This document shows, one piece after another, positions 2,107 to 57,149 of a stretch of 64,000 nt of DNA. The DNA is taken from the NCBI RefSeq assembly GCF_900155655.1, contig NZ_LT706987.1:1013542-1077541 (forward strand). Direction: 5' to 3'. The stretch's first letter is position 1. Every line of letters begins with the position of its first letter. The DNA is from Prevotella ihumii (GTDB taxonomy: Bacteria > Bacteroidota > Bacteroidia > Bacteroidales > Bacteroidaceae). The position numbers and the translations under genes are program-made. Under the pieces are notes generated by a model. That model had not been told where the DNA came from. It saw nothing but the letters and a program-made list of their open reading frames with translations, and searched no databases.

Positions 2107-2214
2107 TCCAAAACATATATGTTTTACCCACCCAAACATATATGTATTACCTTGTCAAAGTTAAACTTTGGCGCTGTCAAACATATATGTTTTACTGCTA
2201 AAACATTAATGGTT
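2107..2214. repeat. Intergenic palindrome cluster A
   Basis: Units in order: AAAACATATATGTTTTAC (2110-2127), AAACATATATGTATTA (2134-2149), CAAAGTTAAACTTTGG (2156-2171), CAAACATATATGTTTTAC (2178-2195) and the variant AAAACATTAATGGTT (2200-2214), followed by TAGAACAA near 2238. Same family as the clusters at 15.9, 27.05, 42.2 and 56.9 kb. No gene is seen in this gap (1880-2662); the rest of it holds a small hairpin and the MITE-like element. Confidence 0.85.
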
Positions 2215-2298
2215 CAATTCTCAACAATAGGTAGGTTATAAATAGAACAAAAGCATTAGTCCGAACATATAATGGAGGGTTAAGGTAAAATCGATAAG

Positions 2299-15746: not shown

Positions 15747-15860
15747 AACTCTGTTTTAAAGTTGAGTATAAAAAGAAGAATAGAACAATCTAAAATAGCT
15801 AACAAACATGCTGCTTTAGATTTATAAACAACTGACATACAACAACTTACATATACACTT

Positions 15861-15948
15861 GTAAAACATATATGTTTGACACCCCAAAACATATATGTTT
15901 TACCCTCTCAAAGTTCAACTTTGGGAACTCCAAACATCAATGTTTTGC
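15861..15948. repeat. Intergenic palindrome cluster B
   Basis: Units: GTAAAACATATATGTTTGAC (15861-15880), AAAACATATATGTTTTAC (15886-15903), CAAAGTTCAACTTTGG (15909-15924) and CAAACATCAATGTTTTGC (15931-15948), with TAGAACAA near 15997. The 362-base gap 15747-16108 between pyrF and the HD gene holds only this cluster; no gene is seen. Confidence 0.87.
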
Positions 15949-16108
15949 TTTTCAAAGATTGATGTATAAAAAGCAATTGTTCGGTTATGGAAAAATAGAA
16001 CAATAACTAACGATGGCAAAAAGATTGTATTGAAGATAAGAAAACTGCATCTAAAAGAAGTGAAAAGTTTTACCTTATTATATACAGATACGAGAAAAAA
16101 GACGCACA

Positions 16109-27022: not shown

Positions 27023-27108
27023 CAAAACATATAGGTCTGACACTCCCAAAGTTGAACTTTAACCGCGCCAAAGTTCAACTTTGGGAGTGTCAACGTTGAT
27101 GTTTAGCT
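27023..27108. repeat. Intergenic palindrome cluster C with 53-nt perfect hairpin
   Basis: Degenerate unit AAAACATATAGG (27023-27034), then a 22-bp perfect inverted repeat: 27039-27060 and 27070-27091 around a 9-base loop AACCGCGCC. Each arm contains the CAAAGTTGAACTTT core. A further AACGTTGATGTTTAGC unit follows, and TTGTTCTATTC occurs near 27180. The 590-base gap 26891-27480 holds only this and the promoter region of the carboxylase genes (TATTTTTG at 27401-27408); no gene is seen. Confidence 0.85.
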
Positions 27109-27480
27109 TTCTTAAAGTATACACTACAATAAATAACTGATAACCAATAGATTGCAAAAACCAAAAATAAAGAATAAGATTGTTCTATTCTTCACATTCA
27201 GACACTATAATGACAACCTATTATTTGTCCTTTTTCAGAATAATATGCAAGCATTCTTATTAACTCAAAGACAAAGAACAAACAAAATTAAAGGCGTATA
27301 GACCGTATATAAAATGCAGCTTTTTTACAATTCAAAAATGTAGCTTCAGACCTTAACAAACTTTAAAGACGATACGGAGATAATTTCGTCTTTTTTTTCG
27401 TATTTTTGCACGATATTTAGTGGGAACATTATATTCCTATACTTCGAATAGAACAAGAAAAAGAATAAAATACACTTTTT

Positions 27481-42032: not shown

Positions 42033-42160
42033 ATATAAGGTGTGAAATAAAAAGCAGGCTAAACTATCTGCTCTTAGGGATTAACTCCCAAGTGGGCTTG
42101 AATATTGTTCTAAATACGAAGTGGCAAACATGCAAGCGCAATAGATAGATGTTTGAAAAG

Positions 42161-42222
42161 CAAAACATATATGTATGGGGTTGTCAAAGTTGAACTTTGG
42201 GAGCGCAAAACATATATGTTTA
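42161..42222. repeat. Intergenic palindrome cluster D
   Basis: CAAAACATATATGTATG (42161-42177), CAAAGTTGAACTTTGG (42185-42200), CAAAACATATATGTTTA (42206-42222), with TTGTTCTA near 42105. It lies between the IS4 copy and the first integrase, just outside the likely left end of the mobile element. Confidence 0.85.
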
Positions 42223-42360
42223 TGCTGCAACTAATCAACGAAAATGAAGAAATATTGAAGTTGGTGTAAACTGACTGATAATGAGCAGGAAACGGAATAA
42301 TTTGCATAGAAATTCCCTTTTCAAAAAAGGCAGGTATATGCAGATTTAAGCAGAAGTTCA

Positions 42361-42396
42361 GTTACCAAAACGTTACCCGATTTCGTCATAGGTAAC
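42361..42396. promoter_or_regulatory. Cluster of GTTACC/GGTAAC motifs near left end
   Basis: GTTACC at 42361 and 42372 and GGTAAC at 42391. The same hexamers recur near the right end (GGTAAC 56752, GTTACC 56844, GGTAAC 56869). Such short repeats at both ends resemble arm-type recombinase sites. The rest of 42033-42519 holds only cluster D and the integrase promoter (TAATTTTG at 42493-42500). Confidence 0.35.
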
Positions 42397-42519
42397 GATG
42401 AAGTAATGTTCAGTAACTGAATTATTTTCGCTCGTGTGGCTGTTGCTGCGGTCGGCAGTTTTCTGCATAAGTGATGAACGCTTTGAAATTGGTAATTTTG
42501 CCACAAAACATCAAAGCGT

Positions 42520-43749
42520 ATGAAAACAGAAAAGATGAAGGTGTTGCTCTACCTCAAAAAGAGCGGACTTGACAAGTCGGGTAAGGCTCCGATTATGGGA
42601 CGCATTACCATTGGGCGTTCCATCGCCCAGTTCAGTTGTAAGCTCTCCTGCAATCCTGACTTGTGGAATCCCCGTGAGAGCAGAATGGACGGAAAAAGTC
42701 GTGAGGCGGTGGAGGTGAATGGCAGGTTGGAGAACTTGCTGCTGTCCATTCAGTCAGCCTATCAGTCTTTGCTTGCAAGAGGTTGCCCATTTGACGCAAC
42801 CGATGTGAAGGAACAGTTTCAAGGCAGTGTGCAGACACGGTGCATGCTCATCGAAAGGCTTGATATGCTCATAAAGGAGAAAGAAAGTCATGTCGGTGTA
42901 GACATCAGAAAAGAGTCAATGGCAAGCTATCACTCCACGAGAATCCACTTGCAGGGGTTCATCCAAGCGAAGTATAAGGTTTCTGACTTAGCCCTCTCAC
43001 AACTGACAGAGAACTTCATCCATGAGTTTCAGCAGTACTTCTTGGGAGAGTGTGGATTTCAGGAAAGCTCATTCTACAATGTCGCCACCCATCTGAAAAC
43101 GGTATGCAGGCTGGCTTACCGTGAGGGGGTGGCAGATATTCTGCTTTTCGACAAAGTCAAAATCAGCAAGGGTAACAAGAAACTCCCCAAAGCACTTGAC
43201 AGAGGGGCATTTGAGAAGTTAAAGGCTCTCCACTTTGAGGACTTGGAGGAGGAAATGGAAACGGCAAGGGATATTTTCCTCTTTGCCTGTTATACGGGTG
43301 CTGCATATTGTGATTTGATGGAACTGGACAAGTCCCATCTTGTGCGTGATGACGAGGGTAGCCTTTGGCTGAAGTTCAACCGTCAGAAGACAGGTGTGCC
43401 TTGTCGTGTTAAACTGCTGCCCGAAGCCATATGGCTGATGGAGAAGCTCCACAGCGATGAAAGGGAAACATTGCTCCCTTTCATGGGATATGCCACTTAC
43501 CAATCTTATTTGAAGGCCCTGCGGCTTCGTGCAGGCATCTCGTTTCCTTTTACCACACATACAGCAAGGCACACATTTGCCACGCTCATCACGCTTGAAC
43601 AGGGTGTCCCCATTGAGACCGTGAGTAAGATGCTGGGGCATTCCAACGTGAGCATGACCGAGCGTTATGCAAAGGTAACGCCGCAGAAACTTTTTGAGGA
43701 ATTCGACCGTTTCCTTTCTTTCACTGAAGATATGCAGTTGGCTATCTAA
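42520..43749 (+). CDS. Tyrosine recombinase (integrase), first of tandem pair
   Basis: 409 residues: N-terminal arm-binding domain, a SAM-like core-binding domain (about 100-215), then the catalytic domain. HTARHTFATLI supplies the His-x-x-Arg, MLGHSNVSMTERYAKV the last His and the nucleophile Tyr. The first catalytic Arg position reads CYTGAAYCDLMEL, with Ala in its place, as in IntDOT-type Bacteroides integrases. Presumed to integrate and excise the element. An imperfect hairpin AACGCTTTGA / TCAAAGCGTA overlaps the start region. Confidence 0.93.
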   Translation: MKTEKMKVLLYLKKSGLDKSGKAPIMGRITIGRSIAQFSCKLSCNPDLWNPRESRMDGKSREAVEVNGRLENLLLSIQSAYQSLLARGCPFDATDVKEQFQGSVQTRCMLIERLDMLIKEKESHVGVDIRKESMASYHSTRIHLQGFIQAKYKVSDLALSQLTENFIHEFQQYFLGECGFQESSFYNVATHLKTVCRLAYREGVADILLFDKVKISKGNKKLPKALDRGAFEKLKALHFEDLEEEMETARDIFLFACYTGAAYCDLMELDKSHLVRDDEGSLWLKFNRQKTGVPCRVKLLPEAIWLMEKLHSDERETLLPFMGYATYQSYLKALRLRAGISFPFTTHTARHTFATLITLEQGVPIETVSKMLGHSNVSMTERYAKVTPQKLFEEFDRFLSFTEDMQLAI

Positions 43750-43810
43750 TCCTTATTAAGTCATTTGATTTCTTATCTATTCATTTAATTAACTTCAAAC
43801 CACCAAGACA

Positions 43811-45130
43811 ATGAGAAGTACATTCAAGATACTATTCTATATCAACAGACAGAAGACAAAGGCAGACGGCAATACCGCCATTCTCTGCCGTATCACCATA
43901 GACGGAAAGAATACCGCCATTACCACAGGAGAAGAGTGTAAATTCTCCGAGTGGAACACCAAGCAGGGTTTGACGACTGACAGGAAGACCAATCAAAGAA
44001 TCAGCGAGTTCAGGGATTTGGTAGAGCAAACCTATCGGGACATACTGACGGGGGATGGAGTGGTAAGCGTGGAACTTATCAAAAACCGCTTGCAAGGTAT
44101 TGCCACCAATCCCACCACGCTCCTTGCCATGAGCAGGGCGGAACTGCAATCCGTCAAAGAGTCAGTAGGCAAGTCAAGGGCAGAGGGAACTTATCTGAAC
44201 CTGTTCCATTCTGACAGAAATCTCCGTGAGTTTGTCGAAAACAAAGGAGTGCAGGACATACCCATCGGAACAATTACGGAAGACTTGTTTGAGGAATACC
44301 GCTTCTTCCTCAAAAAGCGTGGCTATGCAGCACCTACCATCAACCGCCATCTCTGTTGGCTGAGCAGGTTGATGTTTCGTGCGGTCAGCCAAAGGATAAT
44401 CCGCTGCAATCCGTTTGAGAACGCCAAATACGAGAAGGAGGACAGGAAGATACGCTTCCTGCAAAAGAGCGAAGTCACCAAACTTGTGGCAATGAAGATG
44501 AATGACAGGGAAACAGAGTTGGCACGGCTGATGTTTGTCTTTTCCTGCTTCACAGGGTTGGCTATCTCGGATATGGAGAATTTGGAATACAGGCATTTCC
44601 AGACGGCAGCGGACGGACAGCAGTATATAAGAAAGGAACGTCAGAAGACCAAGGTTGAGTTCATCGTGCCGTTACATCCCATAGCTGAAGCCATCATCAG
44701 CCATTGTAGGAAAGAGCAGGAAAGAAGCGAGGAACATCTGATGGTGAAAGAAAAGGGCGACCGCCTTGTCTTTCACCGTGATTGCAGCCGTAGTGTCATG
44801 GATACCAAGCTGAGCATCGTGGGAAAGGCTTGCGGTATCAGAGAGCGTTTGTCCTACCACATGGCTCGTCACACATTCGGCACGATGAGTCTGAGCGCAG
44901 GAATCCCTATCGAGAGTATAGCCAAGATGATGGGACACGCCTCCATATCAAGCACTCAAATTTATGCGCAGGTGACGGATAGTAAGATTTCGGAGGACAT
45001 GGACAGGCTTATCGCCAGGTACAAGGCGAAGGACAAAAATACCGTAAATGCAGATGTGGAAGCAACAACAGACACAAAGACAATTCCCTTTGCTGTCAAT
45101 TCAAATGGCAGAAAGGAGGAAACGGCATGA
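43811..45130 (+). CDS. Tyrosine recombinase (integrase), second of tandem pair
   Basis: 439 residues. Arm-binding N-terminus, core-binding domain around 115-210, catalytic domain with YHMARHTFGTM (His-x-x-Arg), MMGHASISSTQIYAQV (His and Tyr). As in the first integrase, the Arg I position reads FTGLAISDMENL, without the Arg. The C-terminal tail after the Tyr is unusually long (about 45 residues). It follows the first integrase by 61 bases; the stop overlaps the next start (ATGA). Confidence 0.92.
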   Translation: MRSTFKILFYINRQKTKADGNTAILCRITIDGKNTAITTGEECKFSEWNTKQGLTTDRKTNQRISEFRDLVEQTYRDILTGDGVVSVELIKNRLQGIATNPTTLLAMSRAELQSVKESVGKSRAEGTYLNLFHSDRNLREFVENKGVQDIPIGTITEDLFEEYRFFLKKRGYAAPTINRHLCWLSRLMFRAVSQRIIRCNPFENAKYEKEDRKIRFLQKSEVTKLVAMKMNDRETELARLMFVFSCFTGLAISDMENLEYRHFQTAADGQQYIRKERQKTKVEFIVPLHPIAEAIISHCRKEQERSEEHLMVKEKGDRLVFHRDCSRSVMDTKLSIVGKACGIRERLSYHMARHTFGTMSLSAGIPIESIAKMMGHASISSTQIYAQVTDSKISEDMDRLIARYKAKDKNTVNADVEATTDTKTIPFAVNSNGRKEETA

Positions 45131-45546
45131 ATACGAGCTATAAATCAAAAACAAAGACCAGCACGGACAATAATCGCAGTTACTTTGATTGGGGTTGCAA
45201 TATGCAAGTCATCCGCAAGGGAATCGGAGACATAGCCATGACGGAGGGAGAACTTACAAGGTTCTTCGGAGTAACGTGGAGAAAACTTAATCATAGACTG
45301 CAAACACTTATGAAATCCTCCACCTTGCATCCCGATGAGAGGGGTGCAGGTGAAGAGCCTGTTTTCATCAGCGGACAATTGAAAGGCTATGCGCCACTCT
45401 ATCCGCTTCCTATCATCATTGCCCTGTCCTTTCTGTTGGACAGCACGGAAGCACATTTGTTCAGAAAGTACATCAGTAGAAAATTGCAGGCAGAGACTGC
45501 CATTGTAACGCCAATCTTCCTGTTGAGCAATACCAAGAACCGATGA
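45127..45546 (+). CDS. Small conserved mobile-element protein of unknown function
   Basis: 139 residues starting in an ATGA overlap with the second integrase, so translation is coupled. Basic N-terminus, then MTEGELTRFFGVTWRKLNHRLQTLMKS in an HTH-like pattern, then helices. Probably a DNA-binding accessory to integration. I do not know a named family. Confidence 0.72.
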   Translation: MNTSYKSKTKTSTDNNRSYFDWGCNMQVIRKGIGDIAMTEGELTRFFGVTWRKLNHRLQTLMKSSTLHPDERGAGEEPVFISGQLKGYAPLYPLPIIIALSFLLDSTEAHLFRKYISRKLQAETAIVTPIFLLSNTKNR

Positions 45547-45578
45547 ATATATTTCCTTTTTTTTCACCGATATTATCC

Positions 45579-45672
45579 TACTACATAACTACAATATGAG
45601 GTAATATAGTGAAAGAAAAGGATTAGAATGTAGTTAGAAATTATCCTACATGTTACTACTTTTTGACTACAT
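45579..45672. repeat. TACTAC/TGTAG direct and inverted repeats
   Basis: TACTACATAACTACA (45579-45593), ATGTAGTTAG (45628-45637), CCTACATGTTACTAC (45645-45659), GACTACAT (45665-45672). The same word recurs in the iteron-like array at 53189-53280. No gene lies in 45547-45725. Confidence 0.5.
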
Positions 45673-45725
45673 ATTAATGTTGAAATATTTTCAAATAAAC
45701 TCTATTGTGGTATTGTGTATAATTA

Positions 45726-47379
45726 GGGTCTGCTGAATTATTATCTTTTCACCGACAGAGGGTAGCAGACATAGACCCTCATAGTGACAATAATGATGAA
45801 AAAACGCCAGATTTCGGTCAGGGCAAGACAAAGTTCCTTCAGGAACTTCATCACGTTTTTAACGAAGTAGCACATTCCTGTCCAGCATCGTGCTGTATCT
45901 GGAAGCTTGGCTCTTATGTCATTGGCTCGATAGATTCTCTTGCCAGTACCGAATGAGCATTCGATTTCATTGCGTTCCCCGATGGCTTTGGCCATTCTGG
46001 ATTTCATCTCATCTGAAGGAGAATCCTTCGGTGGTCGCCCTAACGGTTTGCAGTATGAATGGATTTCAAAATCCTCAAGTATATCTCGGTTTGACCTGTT
46101 CAGGTAAATCTTATCCGCAAGGATGGTGGCCGGAAGATAGCCGAAGCGTTCTTTGAAAAGTTGAATCTGTAGCAAGAGGTCCTGGCTTTCGTTGTAGGCA
46201 TCCCAACTGTGGTGGTCGATGAACGTATAGCCCTCGACTATGCTTGCACCTATCTTGGCCCCGAACTCAGTCCTTGCCTTAGCCTTTCCACGGACAATGG
46301 CACGGACGTGTGGCTGAAAGATGCTCAGTATGCGGTTTGCACAAGTATGAGTCTTTGATCTGTACATCTCCTCCTGCTGATGGTACATCTTGAGGATGGC
46401 AGTCAAGGTGCGTTTCTCATATAGGAATAGGCTCTCGTAGTACGTCTTGTTCTTTGCAAGCAAGTTCATTAAGATGCGGATATCCTTGCGCAAGTGGTTG
46501 AGCATCAACCCGATAGTATCACGCACCATCTTGCCTTTCTTCTTGGCTTTCTTGACAAGTTGAAGGTATGCCTGACGTGCATGCTTGTAGTTCGTTCGTG
46601 GCTTGTGCAGCTCAAACATATCGCACACCTTTATAATATAATCGGTAACCTTGCGGCAACCATCATGTATTATATCAACGTCAACAGGATAACGCATCTC
46701 TGCATCGGCACAGGTAGCATCAATCTTCAGCACTCCCTTGTGCTCGCGACCTTTTGAGTCGGTGAAGGAAGCGGCATTCGGATCCTCTGGTTTTAGAGTC
46801 GGTGGTTCCTCATCATTCTTCTTCGCCTCTTCTTCCTCACGCTTGCGTTTCTCTACAAGAAGGCGCTTCTGCTTGTCGAGAAGCTTGACTGTCATCTTGT
46901 TTAGTTCTTCCTCTGAGATTCGCTTGCGTATCGTGACGAATAGGCTTGGGTCGAATATAGGCTTGTCGGTGAACCCATGCAATCCACAAAAGTACTGCAT
47001 ATAGGGACTCTCTCTGATAATCTCGATGGTCTCGACATCACTTAGGTTTAGTTTGTGCTTGATAATCATTGCGCCGAGAATCATGCGTGCCGGCTTGTTC
47101 CCTGCACCTTTCTTCTGATTGTCCAACCTTGAGTTGTATTCCTTCTCAAGTTCTGTCCATGGAAGAAGGTCACCGAGAGCCACCCATCGGTTTGTCTTGT
47201 CCAACTCATCAAGGGATGAGCGGAGCAAACCGAGGTCAAGTTGCTTGTATTTTGGAGCGTAAAACTTCATCTTGCTATGGATTTAACTATATAAAGGTAC
47301 GATTTTTTTGTTAAACAAACAAAGAAATAAAGTTATATAAACTTAAATATCAGAGAGTTATAAATTATTCAGTAAACAC
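45726..47379 (-). mobile_element. IS5/IS1182-type insertion sequence
   Basis: 1654 bp. Left end GGGTCTGCTGAATTATT and right end (complement) GTGTTTACTGAATAATT match at 13 of 17. Flanked by TAATTA on both sides (45720-45725, 47380-47385), taken as a 6-bp target duplication. One transposase gene on the - strand whose stop codon lies within 20 bases of the left end. Confidence 0.82.
45741..47270 (-). CDS. IS5/IS1182-type transposase
   Basis: 509 residues, full length. N-terminal DUF772-type domain (KPARMILGAMIIKHKLNLSD, PYMQYFCGLHGF), a Lys/Glu-rich insert near 130-150, then the DDE domain: VLKIDATCADAEMRYP (first Asp), LADKIYLNRSNRDIL (second Asp) and NEIECSFGTGKRIYRAND (Glu). The C-terminus is hydrophobic. 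Probably active, since the frame and ends are intact. Confidence 0.9.
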   Translation of the reverse strand: MKFYAPKYKQLDLGLLRSSLDELDKTNRWVALGDLLPWTELEKEYNSRLDNQKKGAGNKPARMILGAMIIKHKLNLSDVETIEIIRESPYMQYFCGLHGFTDKPIFDPSLFVTIRKRISEEELNKMTVKLLDKQKRLLVEKRKREEEEAKKNDEEPPTLKPEDPNAASFTDSKGREHKGVLKIDATCADAEMRYPVDVDIIHDGCRKVTDYIIKVCDMFELHKPRTNYKHARQAYLQLVKKAKKKGKMVRDTIGLMLNHLRKDIRILMNLLAKNKTYYESLFLYEKRTLTAILKMYHQQEEMYRSKTHTCANRILSIFQPHVRAIVRGKAKARTEFGAKIGASIVEGYTFIDHHSWDAYNESQDLLLQIQLFKERFGYLPATILADKIYLNRSNRDILEDFEIHSYCKPLGRPPKDSPSDEMKSRMAKAIGERNEIECSFGTGKRIYRANDIRAKLPDTARCWTGMCYFVKNVMKFLKELCLALTEIWRFFIIIVTMRVYVCYPLSVKR

Positions 47380-47430
47380 TAATTAAGGGACGGTATTTGA
47401 TGACGCATTTCAGACCATAACACGGTTGCT

Positions 47431-47594
47431 GTAACTATTCAGCGGTTATTAAAGTTGAATATCAGCAACTTATAAGCACAACATTGTGGTTAAAAACCTC
47501 AAAATGACATTATTCGCTTGATTTTGTTTATATCTAATTCTGTAACTTGCTGATAATCAATGATAATTTATATGCCTTACCGCTGAATAGTTAC
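47431..47594. repeat. Inverted repeat pair, MITE- or remnant-like
   Basis: GTAACTATTCAGCGGT at 47431-47446 is the exact reverse complement of 47579-47594. Inside each arm, a second imperfect match (ATCAGCAACTTA / TAACTTGCTGAT) extends the symmetry. Total span 164 bp with no gene. Possibly a non-autonomous element or an IS remnant between the IS5-type IS and the lipoprotein genes. Confidence 0.55.
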
Positions 47595-47638
47595 ACGTGC
47601 TGCTCTGCAGTTAAATTTTCAAAAAAAATGGAAAAATA

Positions 47639-47670
47639 ATTGTTTGCTTTGTTTTTTATTGTTATCTTTG
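47639..47670 (+). promoter_or_regulatory. Promoter of the lipoprotein pair
   Basis: ATTG at 47639-47642, 20 bases, TATCTTTG at 47663-47670. The -7 box matches the consensus; the upstream box has one mismatch. A strong GGAGG (47691-47695) follows, 10 bases before the ATG at 47706. Confidence 0.7.
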
Positions 47671-47705
47671 GCGCGAAATACAATTTTTGAGGAGGAATGA
47701 TTTTT

Positions 47706-48308
47706 ATGAAATATGTTTTTATTTCGATATTAACAATTCTTTTGGTTAGTTGTCAAGAAGAAGACGCTAATCATCTTTTGCGTTATTCCATGAAAGATGG
47801 AATGATTTTGTATACACAAGAAGATGTGTGTAATTATGAAAGCGCAAACTCTTTTTTAAATGCAGAGAGCAATTTTAGAAAAAAGCCCGAAGATGTCGTA
47901 ATAAATCAAGACTCTAAGAAAGATTCGACATATGGATATGACGAAATATTGTCAGTTTCTTGGGAAAGAGCAAAATTTGGGAAATGGATAGAAAAATATA
48001 ATTTGGACAAAAAAAAGACATATTTTGTGCAAACCATTAAAGTTATTAAACTTATTCCGTCTTCTGGTGAATATGCTCTAACAGAAGGTTTCTATAATGA
48101 TTATAATAAAGATTCTATTGGAGTAAATCTAAATACAGGGAAGAGGGGATTCATTGTTTCTTCTAGCAACACAAATGGTAGATATGAAGCGTATACTATT
48201 ATGAAAAAGATTGGATATGATGATAATGGAAACAGTGTCGGTTTTTACTATCCAATTAAACCATCAAATATTAAATGGAAATATTTTAAAATCAAAACAA
48301 TATGGTGA
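47706..48308 (+). CDS. Lipoprotein of unknown function, first of pair
   Basis: 200 residues from the ATG at 47706; an in-frame ATG at 47697 touches the Shine-Dalgarno GGAGG at 47691-47695 and is less likely. Leader KYVFISILTILLVSCQ is a clear lipobox, so it is exported and lipidated. The mature part is charged, with YGYDEILSVSWERAKFG and a C-terminal YYPIKPSNIKWKYFKI that resembles the end of the second lipoprotein (FIPYTPQNLVWQYVLN), hinting at paralogy. AT-rich compared with neighbours. Stop overlaps the next start (TGATG), so the pair is translationally coupled. Function unknown. Confidence 0.72.
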   Translation: MKYVFISILTILLVSCQEEDANHLLRYSMKDGMILYTQEDVCNYESANSFLNAESNFRKKPEDVVINQDSKKDSTYGYDEILSVSWERAKFGKWIEKYNLDKKKTYFVQTIKVIKLIPSSGEYALTEGFYNDYNKDSIGVNLNTGKRGFIVSSSNTNGRYEAYTIMKKIGYDDNGNSVGFYYPIKPSNIKWKYFKIKTIW

Positions 48309-48333
48309 TGAAAAAACTTTTCTTATTATCAAT

Positions 48334-49714
48334 CAATAGTTCGTTAAAATTTGAGATAATTGCTACGCAGCTTTCCTCTGCCAGCCAAAGAGTTCTTTGA
48401 TAGTATGACTAATTAACTTTCGGTTCGGTATGCTCCGACACCTGTCGAAAATTAATTTTGCAATGTATGTGCTCGCTATGAGCTCCTTGAAAGAAGCCAT
48501 GGAATACGGTAGCCCGTTTTCCTTCATCATCACCTTTGCCACATTCTGTGATGCGAATGATGCGTTGTAGGAGAAGTCCAACTGATTCTTGTGCCTTGCC
48601 TGGCAATGCGCGAGTCCGGTATACTGCTTGGCATCGCGGAAGCAAAACTCGATTTGGAATCTTGAGCGGTATGTGCGCAACACTTCCTCACCTGATATGG
48701 CTGTCTTTGTAGAGAAGAAAAGTTTGTGCTTGCCGTTCGGCATCACCCAAATGACAAGACGCACTTTCTGCTTCAGTGCCTTTGAATAGGCGATGAGTGT
48801 GTAAGCTGTGCCTTCAAGTCCTTCGATATGCATCTTCGCCATACGCGTGAGGTCGAGTTTCTTGTAATTGATTTTCCCGTCAAGTGTTTTGGGACGCCCG
48901 GGCTTATTGGAACGAGGTCCCGTGTACACATAGTATAGGCTCGCCGTATCCCTGAAACGGCTGACAAGATGAAAGCCTTGCTCCTTGATTCCCTCCACAA
49001 ACGGACGGATAGAGAAGAAAGCATCAGCGACAACAATATCGGTGACCTTCAACAATTCTTTCCTGTAGCGTTTGATGACGGCAATGTAATGCTGCACAAG
49101 AGTCATGCTACGCAGTTTCAACTCTCTTGTAGAAGGGGTTTGATGGGCACGAAGCATCATACAGTTGTTGGCGTAGACATCGACAAGGGCAAGTCCCATA
49201 ATTTCAATGCCGTGTTTCATGGAACCTGCACAGCCGGACCAGAAAGTACCAACATGCGGAGTCTTCTTGCCTGACTTACTGATGTAGCTCGGATCTATGG
49301 CTATAGCCAGCAGTCCGTCCATGTTCAGATAACGCTGGGAAAGGTAGAGGTTGAACTTAACCCAGTTGATGCACTTAGCCCGGCTGCGGTTGAAATTCGT
49401 TCTGTAGGTCTGCTCGCAATGGGTGCCGTAACGCTCCATTTGAGTGAAATTTATCTTTCTTTGTATCGCCATGTACAATAAGAGTATTTCCAAGAGTAGA
49501 TTCTCAAAAGTTTTGCCTAATTTTGCAGATGAGCTTTTGATGGCATCTCTGCAGATTTCTGTATATTGGTCGAGTGGTTCTGATGTCATTTGCTTTATGT
49601 TTTTGCTACTATAAAGTTACTGATAATCAGCCACTTGGCCAAATTTTATTAGTTATATTAAGTTAATTAACTCTCTCATTTTCAAACGATTACGTTGGAA
49701 TTAACGAAGTATTG
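48334..49714 (-). mobile_element. IS4-family insertion sequence, copy 2
   Basis: 1381 bp, same ends as copy 1 (CAATAGTTCG... and ...CGAAGTATTG). Target duplication ATCAAT at 48328-48333 and 49715-49720. It lies inside the signal-peptide region of the second lipoprotein gene. Same orientation as copy 1, 6.3 kb away. Confidence 0.94.
48363..49589 (-). CDS. IS4-family transposase, copy 2
   Basis: 408 residues, full length, with the same DDE and YREK residues as copy 1. Three residue differences from copy 1, all outside the catalytic set. Confidence 0.95.
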   Translation of the reverse strand: MTSEPLDQYTEICRDAIKSSSAKLGKTFENLLLEILLLYMAIQRKINFTQMERYGTHCEQTYRTNFNRSRAKCINWVKFNLYLSQRYLNMDGLLAIAIDPSYISKSGKKTPHVGTFWSGCAGSMKHGIEIMGLALVDVYANNCMMLRAHQTPSTRELKLRSMTLVQHYIAVIKRYRKELLKVTDIVVADAFFSIRPFVEGIKEQGFHLVSRFRDTASLYYVYTGPRSNKPGRPKTLDGKINYKKLDLTRMAKMHIEGLEGTAYTLIAYSKALKQKVRLVIWVMPNGKHKLFFSTKTAISGEEVLRTYRSRFQIEFCFRDAKQYTGLAHCQARHKNQLDFSYNASFASQNVAKVMMKENGLPYSMASFKELIASTYIAKLIFDRCRSIPNRKLISHTIKELFGWQRKAA

Positions 49715-50413
49715 ATCAATTATGGCTTTTGCCATATCAGTAACATCATGTACTAACGATTCACAAGACGAATTGGTTTCAAATGGTACTGCATTATCAA
49801 AGCGAACTGCAGAAGATGCAAATACAGTGATTACGGACAAAGGTGAGTTGATTCACCTTGAAGACACAACTGTATACACGGCTAAACTTTCTGACTTTAT
49901 TTCAACTACTAATTCTGAGCCCGACGCTTGGAGTTCCAATCAAACACGAGCTTCAAACGATTCGTATCCCAAGAAAATAACGGTAAAAGGGTTTGATCGC
50001 AAAGAACAATTTGGTGGGTATAAAAAAATGATTTTTTCAGATGCAGAAAAATATGGTTTATACAAAGGCAGTATATATTTAGTATGCTTTTATAAGATAT
50101 ATAAAGACTTAGCCCAAAGTAACAATGAGAGTATTAAACCTAGAAACTATAACACAAACCCAGATGATGTTGCAATGGGATGGGCACCAGATGAATATGA
50201 CAAAAACGGTAAATTAATAAAAGGCTTCACAAATACAACGAATAGTATAAATGGTTTTGTAACAGCATCAACCATCTTACGTTATGTGAAGTGTGACATA
50301 AGTGGGGCTTCTTATGATAGATTTATCCCTTATACTCCTCAAAATTTAGTTTGGCAGTATGTTTTAAACTATTCTGAGAGTTGGGATTAATTAGATATTT
50401 ATGTAAGGATTAA

Positions 50414-50460
50414 TGTATAAAAAATGATATTTGTATTTTTACGAATATCATTTTTTATAC
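50414..50460 (+). terminator. Terminator after lipoprotein pair
   Basis: GTATAAAAAATGATATT pairs with the complement AATATCATTTTTTATAC around a short loop; nearly perfect 17-bp stem, with a U-rich 3' arm. Confidence 0.8.
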
Positions 50461-50479
50461 AACCTGTTTCGTAATAGTT

Positions 50480-50563
50480 TTATAAAATTAAAGTAATCGT
50501 CTGAATTAAGTCCTCATTCATAGTGTAAGCCTCGTACTCCTTTCCTTTATGCTCAAACACCAC
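50480..50563 (-). pseudogene. Short C-terminal-like remnant
   Basis: A 27-residue frame (GTG at 50563, TAA at 50480): VVFEHKGKEYEAYTMNEDLI then a hydrophobic end. It reads like the C-terminus of a small mobile-element protein but has no proper start. The rest of the gap 50391-50709 shows only the terminator. Confidence 0.25.
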
Positions 50564-50709
50564 ATTTAATTATCCACATATTATGTTTGCAGGAAGACTG
50601 TCAAGAGTCGTTGCATTTTAATTGCAGCTTTTATCGCCTCAAAACACTATAAATAAGACGACTTCGTTCGGATGTTACATACGGAGGATTCTCCTTGATT
50701 TATTTTCCA

Positions 50710-50997
50710 TCACTTATAATTATCTTCCAACATCTTCTCCAAATCCGAAGCCTTGTAGAGAATCTTCCCTGCAAATTGTGTGTAGGGAATAATTCTCCTG
50801 TCCCGATAGTCTTGCAAGGTGCGAGGGCTGATATACAGCCGCTCGCATACTTCCTTACCCGTCAGGAAATGCTCACCGCCAAACAGCGGTTTGTGTGTCT
50901 GTGCCACTTCCTTTATCCGTCTGTTCACTCCCTCAACTGCGGAGAGCACCACCAGCATATCGTCCGCATCCATGTTCAAGTCTCTTACCTGTTCCAT
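50710..50997 (-). CDS. Excisionase-like helix-turn-helix protein
   Basis: 95 residues. N-terminal helix, then the MerR/Xis-type winged helix: LTGKEVCERLYISPRTLQDY (helix-turn-helix), RDRRIIPYTQFAGKILYKASDLEKML (wing). Such proteins in Bacteroides mobile elements act in excision and its control. It is downstream of the related gene 51023-51310, 25 bases away, likely one transcript. Confidence 0.85.
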   Translation of the reverse strand: MEQVRDLNMDADDMLVVLSAVEGVNRRIKEVAQTHKPLFGGEHFLTGKEVCERLYISPRTLQDYRDRRIIPYTQFAGKILYKASDLEKMLEDNYK

Positions 50998-51022
50998 ATT
51001 TCTCTTTCCTTATTTGTTATTT

Positions 51023-51310
51023 TTAAATTTGTCTTTTCGATTTATCCGATTTGGTTTGGAGCAATAGCTCCACATCCTCACGCCTGTAATAGCACTTATG
51101 CCCGATTTGCGAGAAAGGCAACACACCTGTATCCCGATGGTGCTGCAATGTGCGCTTGCTGATGTTAAGCAACTTGCATACATCACCGTTGTGCAGCCAA
51201 TCGGTGTGCTTGCTTTGTTCCCCGAATACCTTGTGGCAGGTCTCGGCAAGACAGAGAATCTCATTCTTGAGCCTTGTCCAATTTGAATCCGTAATGATAA
51301 AATATCCCAT
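51023..51310 (-). CDS. Helix-turn-helix (excisionase family) protein
   Basis: 95 residues from the ATG at 51310 (MGYFIITDSNWTRLKNEI); an upstream TTG-initiated frame is possible but unneeded. HTH: WLHNGDVCKLLNISKRTLQHH, wing DTGVLPFSQIGHKCYYRREDVELLL. Paralogous in plan to 50710-50997. Probably a recombination directionality factor or regulator. Confidence 0.85.
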   Translation of the reverse strand: MGYFIITDSNWTRLKNEILCLAETCHKVFGEQSKHTDWLHNGDVCKLLNISKRTLQHHRDTGVLPFSQIGHKCYYRREDVELLLQTKSDKSKRQI

Positions 51311-51543
51311 AGTTTTATAATTGTTTTGTTTGTAATTCCGTCTTATTGGTATTGACAATACCTTTGCCTGTTCTGCGTTTCACCGCACGTTTATGCCTGC
51401 AAAAATATGATGAGTTTGTCATACTTCAAAGCAGCAGGGAACAGCAGGGAAATATCGGGAATTTCAAGGAAAAGCTAACGCATTTTATCGGCAGCCGTTT
51501 GCACCTTCTTACCCTGTTTTCTTCTTTCACCGTCCGTTGGGTA

Positions 51544-51574
51544 CAAAGATACGGTGATGCATCTCCTATTCAAT
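51544..51574 (-). promoter_or_regulatory. Promoter of the excisionase-like genes
   Basis: On the - strand ATTG (complement of 51571-51574), 19 bases, TATCTTTG (complement of 51544-51551). It gives a leader of about 230 bases. The region 51311-51901 holds no other supported gene; the + strand 136-codon frame at 51346-51756 lacks protein-like composition. Confidence 0.6.
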
Positions 51575-51901
51575 CGTTTTTCGCCCAAGTGGCAGCTTGT
51601 GGCACTCTTGGTGTAAACAAACGCTACCTTATTTCTGTGCTGATACTATTGTTTGCAATATCGGTGCAGAATACCGCATACATGCGCAAAAGGTACACTC
51701 CTGCCTCTGCCTTTTCTTGTTATTTTATCATCTTCTTTGACTTAGTTTTAGTTTAAATCAGTCTTTTCTCTCTCTATTTCCATAAAAATCCATGAGAAAT
51801 TCATAGCCAATGAGTGCAACATTATGCAAGCACTCCCCGAATGCTTGGAACTTTCCCATTCTCTTCGTAACTTCACTCTTGGAAACCAAACCAAGCAGAT
51901 A

Positions 51902-53005
51902 ATGAAAAAGAATGCAGATAAAGGCAAATCGGAGGGCGAAAACAATATGCCCAAGCAAAGGAAGACTTCCTCAAAAAACGGTGAGATAGAAACCTATCTT
52001 TCCTCTCGCTATGAGTTCAGATACAACACGGTGTTGGGAAGAACTGAATACAGGGACAAGGACGATACTCACTTCTCAAAAGTGGGTCGCTATGAAATCA
52101 ACACGCTCCGCAGGGAACTTGACAACGATGTGGGGATTATCACATCTTCCGACAACCTCTATTCCATCATCGAGAGCAGCTTCTCGCCACGCATCAACCC
52201 CATACAAGAGTATTTCAAAGCGTTGCCCTTGCTGGATATAGGCAGTAGTTGTAGTAACACTAACGAATACAATAGTTGCCGCAATGCTTCCTCCCTTTCA
52301 CTGAAAGCCATTCCTGACTTGGCAAGTTGCGTAGTTGTTCGCAACTCTGACAAGTGGCTGCCGTACCTTACTAAATGGCTCGTAGCAGTGGTTGCCAATG
52401 CCATGGATAACCGTGAGTGCCGTAACCATACCTGTCTTGTACTAACAGGCGAGCAGGGCAAGTTCAAGACAACGTTCCTTGACTTGCTTTGTCCTCCTGC
52501 TTTGCATGGTTACAGCTACACGGGCAAGATATATCCGCAGGAGAAGGACACACTTACCTATATCGGGCAAAACCTCATCGTAAACATCGACGACCAACTT
52601 AAAGCCCTCAACAAGCGTGACGAGAACGAACTGAAAAACCTCATCACCTGCCCGATGGTCAAGTATCGTATGCCCTATGATAAATATGTGGAGGAACACC
52701 CCCACTTGGCAAGTTTCGTGGCATCGGTAAACGGCAACGACTTTCTTACAGACCCTACAGGAAGCAGACGCTTCCTGCCCTTTGAAGTGCTTTCCATAAA
52801 TATTGAGAGAGCAAAAGCTATCTCGATGGACAATGTTTATGCGGAAGCCAAAGCCCTGTTAAAGTTAGGTTTTCGCTATTGGTTTGATGATGACGAGATT
52901 GCCGAACTATATAGAGAGAGTGAAGACTTTCAAGTACAAACTGCAGAGATGGAGCTTTTGTTGCGTTGTTTTAAAAGCCAACGGAGGATGAAAGTTATTC
53001 GTTAA
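51902..53005 (+). CDS. VapE-like helicase/primase-associated protein, N-terminal part (frameshifted)
   Basis: VirE/VapE-family P-loop protein. I start at 51902; 51947 (preceded by GGAGGG) is equally possible. About 367 residues. Seen: EIETYLSSRYEFRYNTVLGRTEYRD, RINPIQEYFKALP, P-loop-like LTGEQGKFKTTFLDLL, IDDQLKALNKRDENELKNLI and TGSRRFLPFEVLSI. The end KSQRRMKVIR looks out of frame: reading minus one from TTTTAAAAGCC gives KPTEDESYSL leading into the next frame. So the natural gene is probably one, split here by a single-base loss in an A run or a sequencing error. Confidence 0.75.
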   Translation: MKKNADKGKSEGENNMPKQRKTSSKNGEIETYLSSRYEFRYNTVLGRTEYRDKDDTHFSKVGRYEINTLRRELDNDVGIITSSDNLYSIIESSFSPRINPIQEYFKALPLLDIGSSCSNTNEYNSCRNASSLSLKAIPDLASCVVVRNSDKWLPYLTKWLVAVVANAMDNRECRNHTCLVLTGEQGKFKTTFLDLLCPPALHGYSYTGKIYPQEKDTLTYIGQNLIVNIDDQLKALNKRDENELKNLITCPMVKYRMPYDKYVEEHPHLASFVASVNGNDFLTDPTGSRRFLPFEVLSINIERAKAISMDNVYAEAKALLKLGFRYWFDDDEIAELYRESEDFQVQTAEMELLLRCFKSQRRMKVIR

Positions 53006-53205
53006 TGACCACTACGGAGATACTCACTTATTTGGGTATTTATACTCACCAATCACTTGTTGCCAAGCGTATGGGCGAAGCCTTGAAGAAAGCAGGATAC
53101 ATAAAGGTGAGCAAACGAAGAAACGGAGGTAGCCCCATCTATGTCTACAAAATTAGGAAAATCTTGCCCTGCCCGCTCCTTAAAACTTGTAGTAGCCAAA
53201 TGTAG
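53005..53205 (+). CDS. VapE C-terminal part in shifted frame
   Basis: 66 residues starting MTTTEILTYLGIYTHQSLVA, then KRMGEALKKAGYIKVSKRRNGG; this is a winged-helix tail of the VapE type. Its ATG overlaps the upstream stop (TAATG), so coupled re-initiation could make a separate peptide. I regard it as the severed end of the upstream gene. Confidence 0.7.
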   Translation: MTTTEILTYLGIYTHQSLVAKRMGEALKKAGYIKVSKRRNGGSPIYVYKIRKILPCPLLKTCSSQM

Positions 53206-53280
53206 TAGAATGTGTAGTATTGTCTTATACTACAAAGTAACACTGATTATCAATCACTTATCACAAAATAGTATGTAGTA
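53189..53280. repeat. Iteron-like TGTAGTA repeats, candidate replication origin
   Basis: GTAGTA at 53189, 53202, 53214 and 53275 and TACTAC (inverted) at 53228. The first four are 12-14 bases apart, about one helical turn. They lie between the VapE-like gene and the primase-like gene. This is the layout of an iteron origin, inferred only. Confidence 0.45.
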
Positions 53281-53387
53281 AGAAGAAAGATGAAAAAGTT
53301 TGGAGGGGGAAAACTTTGGAAACAGTAAAACCATAAAAACAGACAAATATAAATAATTATCATTCAACCCATTAAAGTATCAAAGCA

Positions 53388-54392
53388 ATGAAAGAAGAAG
53401 ATTTATCACGCATCAAGCAATACCCCATCGTGGAGTATCTTGAAAGGAAAGGCATCAAGCCTGTACGTAGGACACCTTCCTATGTGCTGTACCGCTCACC
53501 ACTCAGAGAGGAAACGCATCCGAGTTTTAAGGTGGACACACAGAAGAACCTCTGGATAGACTATGCCGAAGGTAGGGGCGGAAGTATCATTGACCTCTGT
53601 ATGCGTTTGGAGAGCTGCACGCTATCGGAAGCCATTTGCCGTTTGGAACAAAACGCTTCCGATAATATAACATATAGTTCTCGTAAAGACTTCGTGCCAA
53701 ATAATTCCCAGCCTGTGATGGCTGTAAATGGAGCAAGGAGACTGATAGAAATATCAGACACCCTGCCACCACATTTGCAGGAATATCTTACGAAGGAACG
53801 CTGCATTGACATGGAAAAGGCTATACCTTTCCTCAAATGTATCAGCTATGAGGTAAGGAGCAGACTCTATCAAGCCATCGGCTATGCTAATCTCTCTGGC
53901 GGCTATGAGCTTCGTGACGACAAGACGTTCAAGGGAACGATAGCTCCGAAGGACATTACTCTGATATTTACGGACAAACAGACAAAACACGCAATAGACA
54001 AGCCACTGCCTGTATGCGTGTTTGAGGGCTTTATGGACTTCCTCTCCTTTCTTTCAATGAAAGAGGAGATAGCCAGCCACTGCCTTGTGATGAACTCCGT
54101 GAGCAATGTGGCAAGGACAGTTCGCTATCTGAACGATCAACACCTGCCCCATATCCTTGCCTTCCTTGACAATGATGAAGCAGGGCGAAGGGCTACTAAC
54201 GATTTCATCAGAGCTGGTTTCAAGGTGGAGGATATGTCCCGATATTACAAGGACTTCAAAGACCTCAACGAGTTTCATGTCAGCCGTATGCGTAAACAGG
54301 AGCAGCAGAAAGTGCAGGAACGGATACGGATGTCGGTTAAAGAACAAAATCAAAACATGAAATCAAAACAAGTCAAACATAAAATGAGATAA
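53388..54392 (+). CDS. DnaG-like primase with toprim domain
   Basis: 334 residues. N-terminal fold of the CHC2 type (IVEYLERKGI, HPSFKV, GRGGSIIDL), but the zinc ligands are lost: SPLREE replaces CPFHxE, and WIDYAEGRGG the CxxCG pair. Toprim: Glu213 in FEGFMDF and Asp261/Asp263 in LDNDEAGRRA. Such proteins are common in Bacteroides mobilizable elements and may prime the transferred strand. Ends with a Lys/Gln-rich tail. Confidence 0.87.
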   Translation: MKEEDLSRIKQYPIVEYLERKGIKPVRRTPSYVLYRSPLREETHPSFKVDTQKNLWIDYAEGRGGSIIDLCMRLESCTLSEAICRLEQNASDNITYSSRKDFVPNNSQPVMAVNGARRLIEISDTLPPHLQEYLTKERCIDMEKAIPFLKCISYEVRSRLYQAIGYANLSGGYELRDDKTFKGTIAPKDITLIFTDKQTKHAIDKPLPVCVFEGFMDFLSFLSMKEEIASHCLVMNSVSNVARTVRYLNDQHLPHILAFLDNDEAGRRATNDFIRAGFKVEDMSRYYKDFKDLNEFHVSRMRKQEQQKVQERIRMSVKEQNQNMKSKQVKHKMR

Positions 54393-54426
54393 AAACATAG
54401 AAAAGCAAAAAGTCAGTAACGAGGGA

Positions 54427-54855
54427 ATGAAGAATACAATCCATTCCGACAAGCAGTATTTTGGACTAAATCAGATAGAAAATTCGTCTGAACATATCAT
54501 TGCCGAACTTCGGGCAAGGAAAGCAAGACTTATTCAAGAGCCTAACGAACAGAACACAGAGAACACTACGCACTCTGAACCTGCGCAGCATACAGAGAAC
54601 GCAACCGTTCAAAGGCGCATCAGTGCCAAGATGAGAAGGGAAACGCTCGAAGCCTACAAGCAAACCTACCTTGTCCCAACAAGACTGAGCAACCGAAAGG
54701 CGGTCTATCTGAGCCGAGAAACGCAGGAGCGTGCCGACTTCATCGTGCGCAGATTGGGCGACAGGGGCAGCAACCTTTCAAGTTTCGTGGAAAACATCGT
54801 GCGCCTCCATCTGGAGGAGTATGGTGAAGACATAGAGAAATGGAGGAGATTGTAA
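54427..54855 (+). CDS. DUF3408 family mobilization-region protein
   Basis: 142 residues. A variable, polar N-terminus (about 1-75), then the conserved C-terminal domain: YKQTYLVPTRLSNRKAVYLSRETQERA, FIVRRLGDRGSNLSSFVENIVRLHLEEY, in a ribbon-helix-helix-like pattern. DUF3408 proteins are typical neighbours of relaxases in Bacteroidetes. Likely DNA-binding. Confidence 0.83.
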   Translation: MKNTIHSDKQYFGLNQIENSSEHIIAELRARKARLIQEPNEQNTENTTHSEPAQHTENATVQRRISAKMRRETLEAYKQTYLVPTRLSNRKAVYLSRETQERADFIVRRLGDRGSNLSSFVENIVRLHLEEYGEDIEKWRRL

Positions 54856-55063
54856 ATCACAGGAAAAGGGTCGAGGACTTTTGGGAAAAGGGGCTATTAT
54901 TCCACTCAAAACCCTCAACCCTTTTTTAGAGAACATAGCAACAGAAATTGGTCAAACATACTGAATGATGGGAACACCACGAACGCAGTTAAACACAGAA
55001 TGCGCGGCATTTACTTTTCTGCAGCAAAACGCCTTGTGCGTAAACGTTTCGTTAGCTGATATT

Positions 55064-55123
55064 GCAAGACGTCAGTTTGTACCCACAAACTGCTCTTGCT
55101 CCCCTCGTCAGACTGTCGGGGAG
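55064..55123. other. Candidate oriT (paired hairpins upstream of mob genes)
   Basis: CAGTTTGT (55073-55080) and ACAAACTG (55085-55092) around ACCC, nested in GCAAGA / TCTTGC; then CTCCCC (55099-55104) and GGGGAG (55118-55123). Such paired inverted repeats directly upstream of mobC-mobA are where oriT lies in Bacteroides mobilizable elements. The 362-base gap 54856-55217 contains no gene. Nick site not identified. Confidence 0.45.
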
Positions 55124-55217
55124 ATTAGACCGTAATCACTACGTTCTCATCGGTCAGCATTCAGAAATTAAGCAACAACAAATCATCTATAATGATTAAC
55201 TCTTAAAGGAAACTTAT

Positions 55218-55643
55218 ATGAATAGATACAAAGGAAAAGCTGCCCGATGGCAGTCAAAGGATAAGGAAGAACAGCGGATGAACAAGACAGAGTTCATCAA
55301 GATAAGATGCACCTTAGAGGAGAAGCATCGTATCAAGTCAAAAGCGGAAAGTACAGGGCGGAAGTTCTCAGAGTACTGCCGTGAGATACTCCTTAACGGA
55401 GAAGTAACAGCTGTTCCCAAGATGACAGACAATGAGAGGGAAGCCATTGCCATTCTTCAACATACAGGAAGGTTCTACGGGCAGGTTTCCAATCTCATCA
55501 AGCTCAAGGACGAGGATTGGCTACATATCACCAAGAACCTTTCGCTATGTGCCAAAGAGGCATTTAAGCGGTTTTACGACCCGCATTTTCGTGTGGATGA
55601 TGAGGTATATAAGGTCTTAAATCTAACAAGAAATGATAGGTAA
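55218..55643 (+). CDS. mobC: MobC-type mobilization accessory protein
   Basis: 141 residues. Basic N-terminus, then the ribbon-helix-helix-like EFIKIRCTLEEKHRIKSKAESTGRKFSEYCREILLNG split across strand and helices, and helical RFYGQVSNLIKLKDEDW. This is the relaxosome protein that helps the relaxase bind oriT. Overlaps mobA by 11 bases. Confidence 0.85.
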   Translation: MNRYKGKAARWQSKDKEEQRMNKTEFIKIRCTLEEKHRIKSKAESTGRKFSEYCREILLNGEVTAVPKMTDNEREAIAILQHTGRFYGQVSNLIKLKDEDWLHITKNLSLCAKEAFKRFYDPHFRVDDEVYKVLNLTRNDR

Positions 55644-56694: not shown

Positions 56695-56740
56695 CTCACG
56701 CCTGAACAAAATGCAGAAAGAAGAATATCTCATTAAAAAT

Positions 56741-56789
56741 GCTTGTTATTCGGTAACAAAGTATTATCTTTGCAAACGGAATAACAAGC
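56741..56789 (+). promoter_or_regulatory. Promoter inside an 11-bp inverted repeat, no gene after it
   Basis: GCTTGTTATTC at 56741-56751 and GAATAACAAGC at 56779-56789 are perfect inverted repeats. Between them: TATCTTTG at 56765-56772 with CTTG 19 bases upstream. It resembles a self-repressed toxin-antitoxin or regulator promoter, but no ORF with a good start follows before 57150. Possibly a remnant. The + strand frame 56615-56959 overlaps mobA and is not supported. Confidence 0.45.
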
Positions 56790-56919
56790 GTTCTTTGTTA
56801 GGCAGAAAGCAGCGAAGCCAAGTAGCTCGCTCGTTTCCAAATCGTTACCTGTTTAGTTATACCAACAAGGTAACTTCTTTATTTTCAGATAGATATATTT
56901 TTATAATTATCTTGGAATG

Positions 56920-56938
56920 CAAAACATATATGTTTTAC
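56920..56938. repeat. Intergenic palindrome unit E
   Basis: CAAAACATATATGTTTTAC, with TTGTTCTATTC at about 57010. One unit of the intergenic family, just beyond the right end of the mobile element. The rest of 56695-57149 holds no supported gene. Confidence 0.85.
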
Positions 56939-57149
56939 AAAGCATCTATAAACCTTTGATTATCAAGGATTTAAATTTTAGCAAAACAATCTTTTGATCT
57001 TTTCGCAGTTTGTTCTATTCTTCCCCTACCCCACAATGTTCTATTGGTTATTACAAACAAAAAAGAGCTTTAACAACCCATTTGGTTTATCAAAGCTCTC
57101 TTATTCTTTGTTTTTCCTATACCTTAATTTATAGGGTTGGGAGAGAATA

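Follow-up and report, generated by a model that had tools for sequence, protein, structure and literature searches.

The chromosome of Prevotella ihumii carries a dispersed intergenic element built around a row of about four short palindromes, strictly phased at about 22.5 bp and accompanied by a leader that resembles two IHF sites. Extrapolating from 51 arrays in 0.98 Mb gives about 170 per genome. The best explanation, to which we give a probability of roughly 45%, is that the palindromes are dyad sites on double-stranded DNA for a dimeric protein that would act with an IHF-like protein to organise or insulate the chromosome. Phasing, layout, constraint on the units, intergenic position and the use of different words in relatives are observed directly, as are fewer close array pairs than chance predicts in two of three genomes.

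Arrays in the 64-kb window

The window, the whole 64,000-nucleotide stretch of P. ihumii DNA that was analysed, contains the following features, in which A and B denote palindromic units of two types, with words AAACATATATGTTT and CAAAGTTNAACTTTG.

2111..2214, + strand: array 1, with A 2111-2124, A 2134-2147, B 2156-2170, A 2179-2192 and a degenerate A 2201-2214
2236..2251, + strand: right-hand TAGAACAA box of array 1, degenerate, 4 mismatches
15774..15789, + strand: left terminal box of array 2, AGAAGAATAGAACAAT, 1 mismatch
15864..15945, + strand: array 2, with A 15864-15877, A 15887-15900, B 15909-15923 and a variant A 15932-15945 (2 mismatches)
15989..16004, + strand: right terminal box of array 2, GGAAAAATAGAACAAT, exact
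27025..27105, - strand: array 3, with a degenerate A 27025-27038, B 27047-27061, B 27069-27083 and a unit of another type 27091-27105 (by eye)
27179..27194, - strand: terminal box of array 3, ATTGTTCTATTCTTCA on the + strand
42105..42112, - strand: tail box core of array 4, TTGTTCTA (by eye)
42141..42221, - strand: larger part of array 4, with a degenerate unit 42141-42154, A 42163-42176, B 42185-42199 and A 42208-42221
42222..56921, no strand: 14.7-kb insert apparently splitting array 4, end points deduced from the order of the array parts
42520-43749, 48363-49589 and 55633-56694: genes of the insert, encoding a tyrosine recombinase, a 408-aa ORF and a relaxase
56922..56935, - strand: detached first unit A of array 4
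56949..56973, - strand: leader of array 4, two facing exact matches to the IHF consensus
57009..57024, - strand: terminal box of array 4, TTTGTTCTATTCTTCC on the + strand

A preliminary description of the window had listed five palindrome clusters. Arrays do stand at 2.1, 15.9, 27.05 and 42.2 kb, but the fifth site, at 56.9 kb, has one A and no B. This site seems to supply the first unit, leader and end box that the 42.2-kb array lacks, cut off from the rest by the 14.7-kb insert: four units and a tail box lie at 42.1-42.2 kb and the remaining parts at 56.9-57.0 kb, all in one orientation. The separation of 5-8 bases between palindromes given in that description is wrong: the gaps, derived from the centre spacings, are 7-9 bp. 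A CRISPR reading was rejected on the same gaps, which are set against the long unique spacers of such loci. The TTGTTCTA/TAGAACAA words were indeed seen close to the palindromes at the window sites, and the eight reported copies of AACATATATGT were recovered on the + strand (14 on both strands, with a mean of 0.03 in shuffles). The statement that no copy lies inside a gene agrees with the wider sample, about 0.98 Mb of the P. ihumii chromosome, in which 0/53 array entries fall in genes called by a simple coding-score script without annotation; the 56.9-kb copy, however, overlaps an uncalled 114-aa ORF at 56615-56959.

Abundance and range of the palindromic words

In the 3.32-Mb P. ihumii genome, whose contig C1 includes the window, there are 354 copies of word A at up to one mismatch, compared with 4 of its reversed control, and 140 exact matches to word B, compared with 0. 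Enrichment beyond base composition, on which the preliminary description depended, is therefore strong, and the arrays that it noticed are genuine and form a bigger family than first noted, although details have had to be corrected. Word A occurs at 0-10 copies, the control level, in each of 250 further family genomes, 16 of them from the same genus, and word B at no more than one per genome across 397 other genomes of the genus; both sets are samples of larger groups. Since these counts are at background, the two words are confined to the host species or to a narrow group outside the samples. Among the records searched, from which closer ones may be missing, the nearest named relative was Prevotella aurantiaca, with 80% identity in an HD-domain protein. 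Carriage of the arrays by phages or plasmids was considered and rejected: one exact two-unit pattern gave 0 matches in the viral_contigs collection, and the 2.1-kb array gave no match among plasmids. One exact pattern also gave 0 matches in genome_contigs, from which the source record itself is possibly excluded.

Layout of the elements

Of the 53 entries of the sample, one is a lone unit and another is the latter part of an array interrupted by an insertion sequence (IS), which leaves 51 arrays. Among palindrome centres up to 80 bp apart, 334 of 344 distances fall at 22-24, 44-46 or 67-69 bp, and adjacent centres are mostly 22, 22.5 or 23 bp apart. Of the 48 chains with three or more units, 18 read AABA and 9 AABAA, the two most frequent orders; BABB, ABAB, BBAB, BABA and BAAB are among the rarer ones. 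Alignment of 21 class-1 elements delimits a conserved block of approximately 232 bp, running from about -90 to +142 relative to the first unit, beyond which conservation is at background. Its parts are, in order, a 16-bp box GGAARAAYAGAACAAT with the core TAGAACAAT, a linker, the leader, the array, a tail and a second box in the same orientation, so that the box forms a direct repeat at the two ends. Arrays that begin with B have flanks unlike those of class 1.

Three minor features of the repeats were also seen. One unit is replaced by another dyad type, AACATTGATGTT, in two arrays (C1 756241 and 1003198); a second dispersed repeat, with the words CCCAAATCGGTCGTTAG and GTTTAGCGAGCTAAAC, adjoins some arrays, for example at the right flanks at C1 298.4, 365.7 and 481.5 kb; and a period scan of P. 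ihumii gave an additional group of matches at period 18.

Conservation of the units

Across 28 class-1 A-A-B-A elements the units depart from the consensus by 3-8%, the spacers by 25-37%, the leader by 39% and the linker by 55%, figures that flatter the units, which themselves served to find the elements. For this reason an unfiltered look was taken beside 83 A-B pairs: the next unit is present with up to 2 mismatches in 79.5% of cases past B and 61.5% past A, compared with 0.1% of 3000 random places. The dyads thus appear to be selectively kept. Whole elements of the same set have a median pairwise identity of 0.58 (maximum 0.74), and because they, their spacers, leader and linker are strongly diverged around nearly invariant units, the copies are old or diverse.

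Changes within A units are one-sided in 73 cases and two-sided in 10, of which 2 keep the pair; 1.5 two-sided changes are expected, and earlier, larger two-sided figures, taken from fixed columns, were partly misalignment. This small excess, together with negative folding z-scores in the 14 elements tested, is what would favour RNA elements in which the units are transcribed hairpins. Both strands, however, give low z-scores (-1.0 to -6.6 and -0.6 to -5.4), an outcome to be expected of repeated palindromes. The palindromes are almost or entirely loopless, unit variants are mostly one-sided, and Rfam at the gathering threshold finds five tRNAs as its only matches in the window. We regard the RNA explanation as very improbable. 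The suggestion in the preliminary description of binding arrays for a dyad-recognising protein fares better: strict phasing, mostly one-sided variants and near-invariant units among decayed spacers all favour it, with the binder itself putative.

Position relative to genes and to one another

Such sites might alternatively serve as operators for a global transcription factor controlling a large regulon, and phased dyads do resemble multi-operator regions. Arrays are also slightly over-represented in divergent gaps (19/53, P=0.045), as regulation would give, which is a counterpoint to the docking-array reading. Against this, 8/53 lie in convergent gaps, and only 2 of 63 facing gene starts are within 100 bp of an array, with median distances of 397 bp in tandem and 393 bp in divergent gaps; these distances are to genes rather than to transcription starts and cover gaps with both neighbours within 1500 bp. 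The 105 neighbour genes recur little, in families of 5, 4, 3, 2, 2 and 2; judged by position, the family of five lies in copies of one IS, that of four includes the transposase of the window and that of three its recombinase. We therefore find global operators improbable.

Two 408-aa ORFs of the window, 40681-41907 and 48363-49589, share a strand, and Pfam identifies the first as a DDE transposase; the genes lying closest to arrays include this transposase and three relatives from elsewhere.

Arrays tend to keep apart. Expectations were obtained by random placement in intergenic gaps, after removal of entries shorter than 35 bp (1/53 in P. ihumii, 2/31 in the Prevotella genome G331 and 5/32 in G322) and of the second half of the IS-split P. 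ihumii array. No pair closer than 3 kb remains among 51 arrays in P. ihumii (5.1 expected, P=0.004), 29 in G331 (4.9, P=0.001) or 27 in G322 (1.8, P=0.13), so that avoidance is clear in the first two genomes and non-significant in the third. When all entries are kept there is one pair in each (P=0.016, 0.009 and 0.22, respectively), that of P. ihumii being the single array split by an IS. Below 5 kb, P. ihumii has 1 pair where 10 are expected and G331 has 3 where 9.8 are expected. Overall spacing is irregular, with a CV of 1.04 in P. ihumii. The distance of arrays from gene starts, taken with the scarcity of close pairs, favours chromosome organisation over promoter control, but scarce close pairs suit transposition immunity equally well, and the two are not separable here.

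Element ends and target sites

The ends of Mu and Tn7 carry transposase sites of about 22 bp. The arrays might likewise belong to non-autonomous mobile elements, with the units as transposase sites, bursts in each species and target immunity spacing the copies. The sharply bounded element of about 232 bp, the few close pairs, the words that differ between species, the inverted-like ends seen by eye in G331 and the predominance of unshared array-bearing gene ends (8 shared and 27 in one genome only for P. ihumii and G331; 3 and 29 for P. ihumii and G322) are all in keeping with this. The ends in P. ihumii are not: they are direct rather than inverted repeats, and the 17 of 28 class-1 elements with both boxes show no target-site duplication (0 at k of at least 3). 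The 28 G331 elements yield 1 match at k=3, where 1.66 are expected, 2 at k=4, where 0.82 are expected, and nothing at greater k. Nor does any end box clearly stand alone: of 70 box matches, 59 lie within 250 bp of arrays, and the other 11 comprise four in insertion-split arrays and seven with two mismatches (2 in the reversed control). Divergence of the copies outside the units also counts against mobility of this kind, and on balance we think the mobile-element account unlikely, though the likeliest alternative to the docking arrays.

Two specific forms were discarded. Classification as a MITE was rejected for want of target-site duplications in the 17 P. ihumii and 28 G331 elements and on account of the direct class-1 end repeats, and a cassette or attachment-site origin, suggested by the direct end boxes, for want of clear solitary boxes.

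BrickBuilt elements of Porphyromonas gingivalis (PMC4596501) are described as always intergenic, with a 23-nt periodicity and a leader and tail, much as here. They differ in consisting of spacerless head-to-tail direct repeats (1 to 22.8), in numbering 19 copies and in having IS5-like inverted ends, and they are classed as a MITE; the ends of the P. ihumii class-1 element are direct.

The leader and comparison with REP elements

The leader resembles two facing IHF-consensus sites, YAANNNNTTGATW and WATCAANNNNTTR. The consensus applied is that of E. coli, a weak point of the comparison. Exact matches within 60 bp of the array edge were found for 17/52 arrays in P. ihumii, 15/29 in G331 and 3/27 in G322, compared with 1.7-2.1% of random intergenic places; the exact signal is therefore weak in G322. 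With up to one mismatch the counts rise to 38/52, 26/29 and 20/27 (22-23% at random), and in other species 7/17 arrays have such a match, a modest excess over 15%. The P. ihumii genome has eight matches to PF00216, the HU/IHF family.

In E. coli, the intergenic BIME, RIP and RIB elements are many-copy mosaics of REP palindromes and an IHF site. An IHF-consensus site such as that of RIB and RIP appears to be present in the P. ihumii element too (17/52 exact versus 1.7%), and the mosaic-plus-IHF-site layout is shared. The P. ihumii arrays differ in being strictly 22.5-bp phased and in belonging to a genome without a Y1-type transposase, and they are best read as resembling the E. coli REP/IHF mosaics in layout while not being members of them.

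REP elements mobilised by a RAYT had been proposed in the preliminary description, and high-copy intergenic palindromes are what such a system would leave. Within the reach of the Y1_Tnp model, PF01797, the search contradicts this, with no match in P. ihumii (G000) or in seven close relatives (G322, G331, G651, G578, G624, G559 and G553). Of the 14 genomes searched, four (G365, G308, G440 and G676) do have the domain, but arrays do not need it, since it is missing from the former; three of the four (G308, G440 and G365) show 22-bp arrays, so that a RAYT link may hold in some genomes. For P. ihumii we hold RAYT mobilisation to be extremely improbable. The GTAG/CGTC REP families (PMC3733652) are reported to be likewise short high-copy palindromes, but those of P. 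ihumii lie in fixed, phased rows with some four units each.

Related arrays in other Prevotella

A sequence-agnostic scan for four 16-bp units with direct or inverted similarity at periods of 15-40 (score at least 0.60) gave 20 matches when applied to 600 kb from six further members of the genus, of which 12 had period 22; in 80 named loci there were 11, 5 of these at period 22. From 100 kb of E. coli, of which only 6.9 kb is intergenic, it gave none. In a run with shuffled controls, the shuffled sequence gave 5 matches over ten groups, one at period 22. Some matches are plain direct repeats without dyads. In the run with these controls G587 and G676 had no period-22 array and G005 had one weak match, equalled by its shuffled control. 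Arrays with a 22-bp period are common among Prevotella, though not universal.

Nine anchor matches in a 100-kb stretch of G331 include eight in a common element of about 190 bp, with four 17-bp units (AAAACCTATTGTTTTGC, AAAAGCGGCTCTTTTGC, AAAAGCGTAGGTTTTGC and a fourth) separated by 5-bp gaps and with ends TGTAAATATTTTT and TTATCTTTACA. These ends are short and, by eye, inverted-like, the element opening with TGTAAATA and closing with TATCTTTACA. Units in G322 are of the type CAAACGTGCGAAGAATG; consensus lines for G331 and G322 mix overlapping and inverted anchors (40, 97), so the unit words were taken from copies and divergences are not quoted. The 49 matches to a related word in G559 are, among the matches listed, mostly AAAAGCTTAGCTTTTGC, whose 13-bp core is one symmetric change from B of P. 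ihumii.

The preliminary description knew of no named Bacteroidetes family of this kind, but there is probably one. PINSR, described by Naito et al. (PMC4755523), measures 188 bp and lies between genes; two P. intermedia strains have 177 and 184 copies, with about three quarters of the sites in common. It also occurs in P. nigrescens, P. falsenii and P. disiens, and is reported to be of unknown function and to have no terminal inverted repeats. The G331 element, with its like internal design, is probably PINSR and G331 a likely PINSR host, as judged by description and not by sequence, and the reported lack of terminal inverted repeats fits uneasily with the inverted-like G331 ends. As described there, PINSR resembles the P. 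ihumii element in being short and intergenic (0/53 in genes here), in copy number (about 180, compared with about 170 here by extrapolation) and in lacking terminal inverted repeats, the P. ihumii end boxes being direct; the probable PINSR of G331 also has four phased units and an IHF-like leader. The P. ihumii element differs in length (about 232 bp in 21 aligned copies, compared with 188 bp) and in its unit words: with the G331 word AAAAGCGTAGGTTTTGC as a proxy, at up to 2 mismatches, there are 0 forward and 2 reverse matches in P. ihumii and 154 and 152 in G331. One exact copy of the PINSR-like G331 word is nevertheless present in P. ihumii (G000:C1:1729031-1729047). The prior descriptions found relevant were PINSR, two P. 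gingivalis papers and one REP paper, and the family may have been described under a different name; papers listed for the words themselves were, by title, all from other contexts.

Sites were also compared between species. In the pyrF-HD gap the best period is 22 in 6 of 67 other loci (five score at least 0.62, L162 0.53); these loci come from two collections, perhaps with some genomes twice, and sharing between P. ihumii and G322 there was ascertained. Since 6/67 is about the genome-wide occupancy, sharing at this gap proves nothing alone. With it excluded, array-bearing gene ends coincide between P. ihumii and G331 in 8/14 cases (P=0.0005). For long gaps only, the figures are 7/12 (P=0.07) for this pair, P=0.16 for P. 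ihumii and G322 and P=0.06 for G322 and G331, and the pooled Mantel-Haenszel odds are 3.9 (P=0.003), an estimate in which neither the gene ends nor the species pairs are independent of one another. The evidence for sites shared between species is no more than suggestive.

A proposed protein-docking device

In the docking-array reading that we prefer, a putative dimeric DNA-binding protein would sit on each unit, so that about four dimers would lie side by side, one per 22.5 bp or so, and an IHF- or HU-type protein would bend the leader beside them. Such a complex would mark intergenic DNA at about 170 places, usually several kb apart. By analogy with the mosaics of REP and IHF sites in E. coli, it would most likely serve to organise the chromosome or to insulate transcription units from one another, and less likely to control single promoters. 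Some related species share the layout but have other unit words. The difference in words could reflect an early burst in each lineage followed by selection on the units, or coordinated change driven by a changing binder.

A wider version, which we advance tentatively and think rather unlikely, is that many Prevotella lineages have their own dialect of one device: about four 22-bp-phased dyads beside an IHF-like leader, repeated between genes at 100-300 sites that seldom come within a few kb of one another, with words rewritten together to follow one fast-evolving binder, the whole organising or insulating the chromosome. PINSR has so far been an orphan repeat. If its layout is common to families with different words, comparison would show what matters (22-bp phase, unit symmetry, IHF-like leader, spacing), and a shared layout would provide bait for catching the binding protein. 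If the word has changed coherently at more than 100 scattered loci, this would be a remarkable example either of co-evolution between sites and their protein or of recurrent bursts on which selection then acted strongly, and the arrays perhaps represent an unrecognised way to organise or mark a chromosome. The species-private words would make good species markers.

Insertions at arrays

An IS with the ends GTAAGCATCCAATATTAGCC lies within A palindromes in 4 of the 17 copies for which both ends were found (G000:C1 372150, 451886, 659104 and 916784, loci L035, L039, L049 and L062), while arrays make up 0.4% of the sample. Three of the four are flanked on both sides by CATATATG. Three related genes, including the tyrosine recombinase of the window, are nearest neighbours of arrays (C1 389783, 495362 and 1056061), and on the strength of these recombinase-family neighbours the arrays may serve as landing sites for mobilisable elements.
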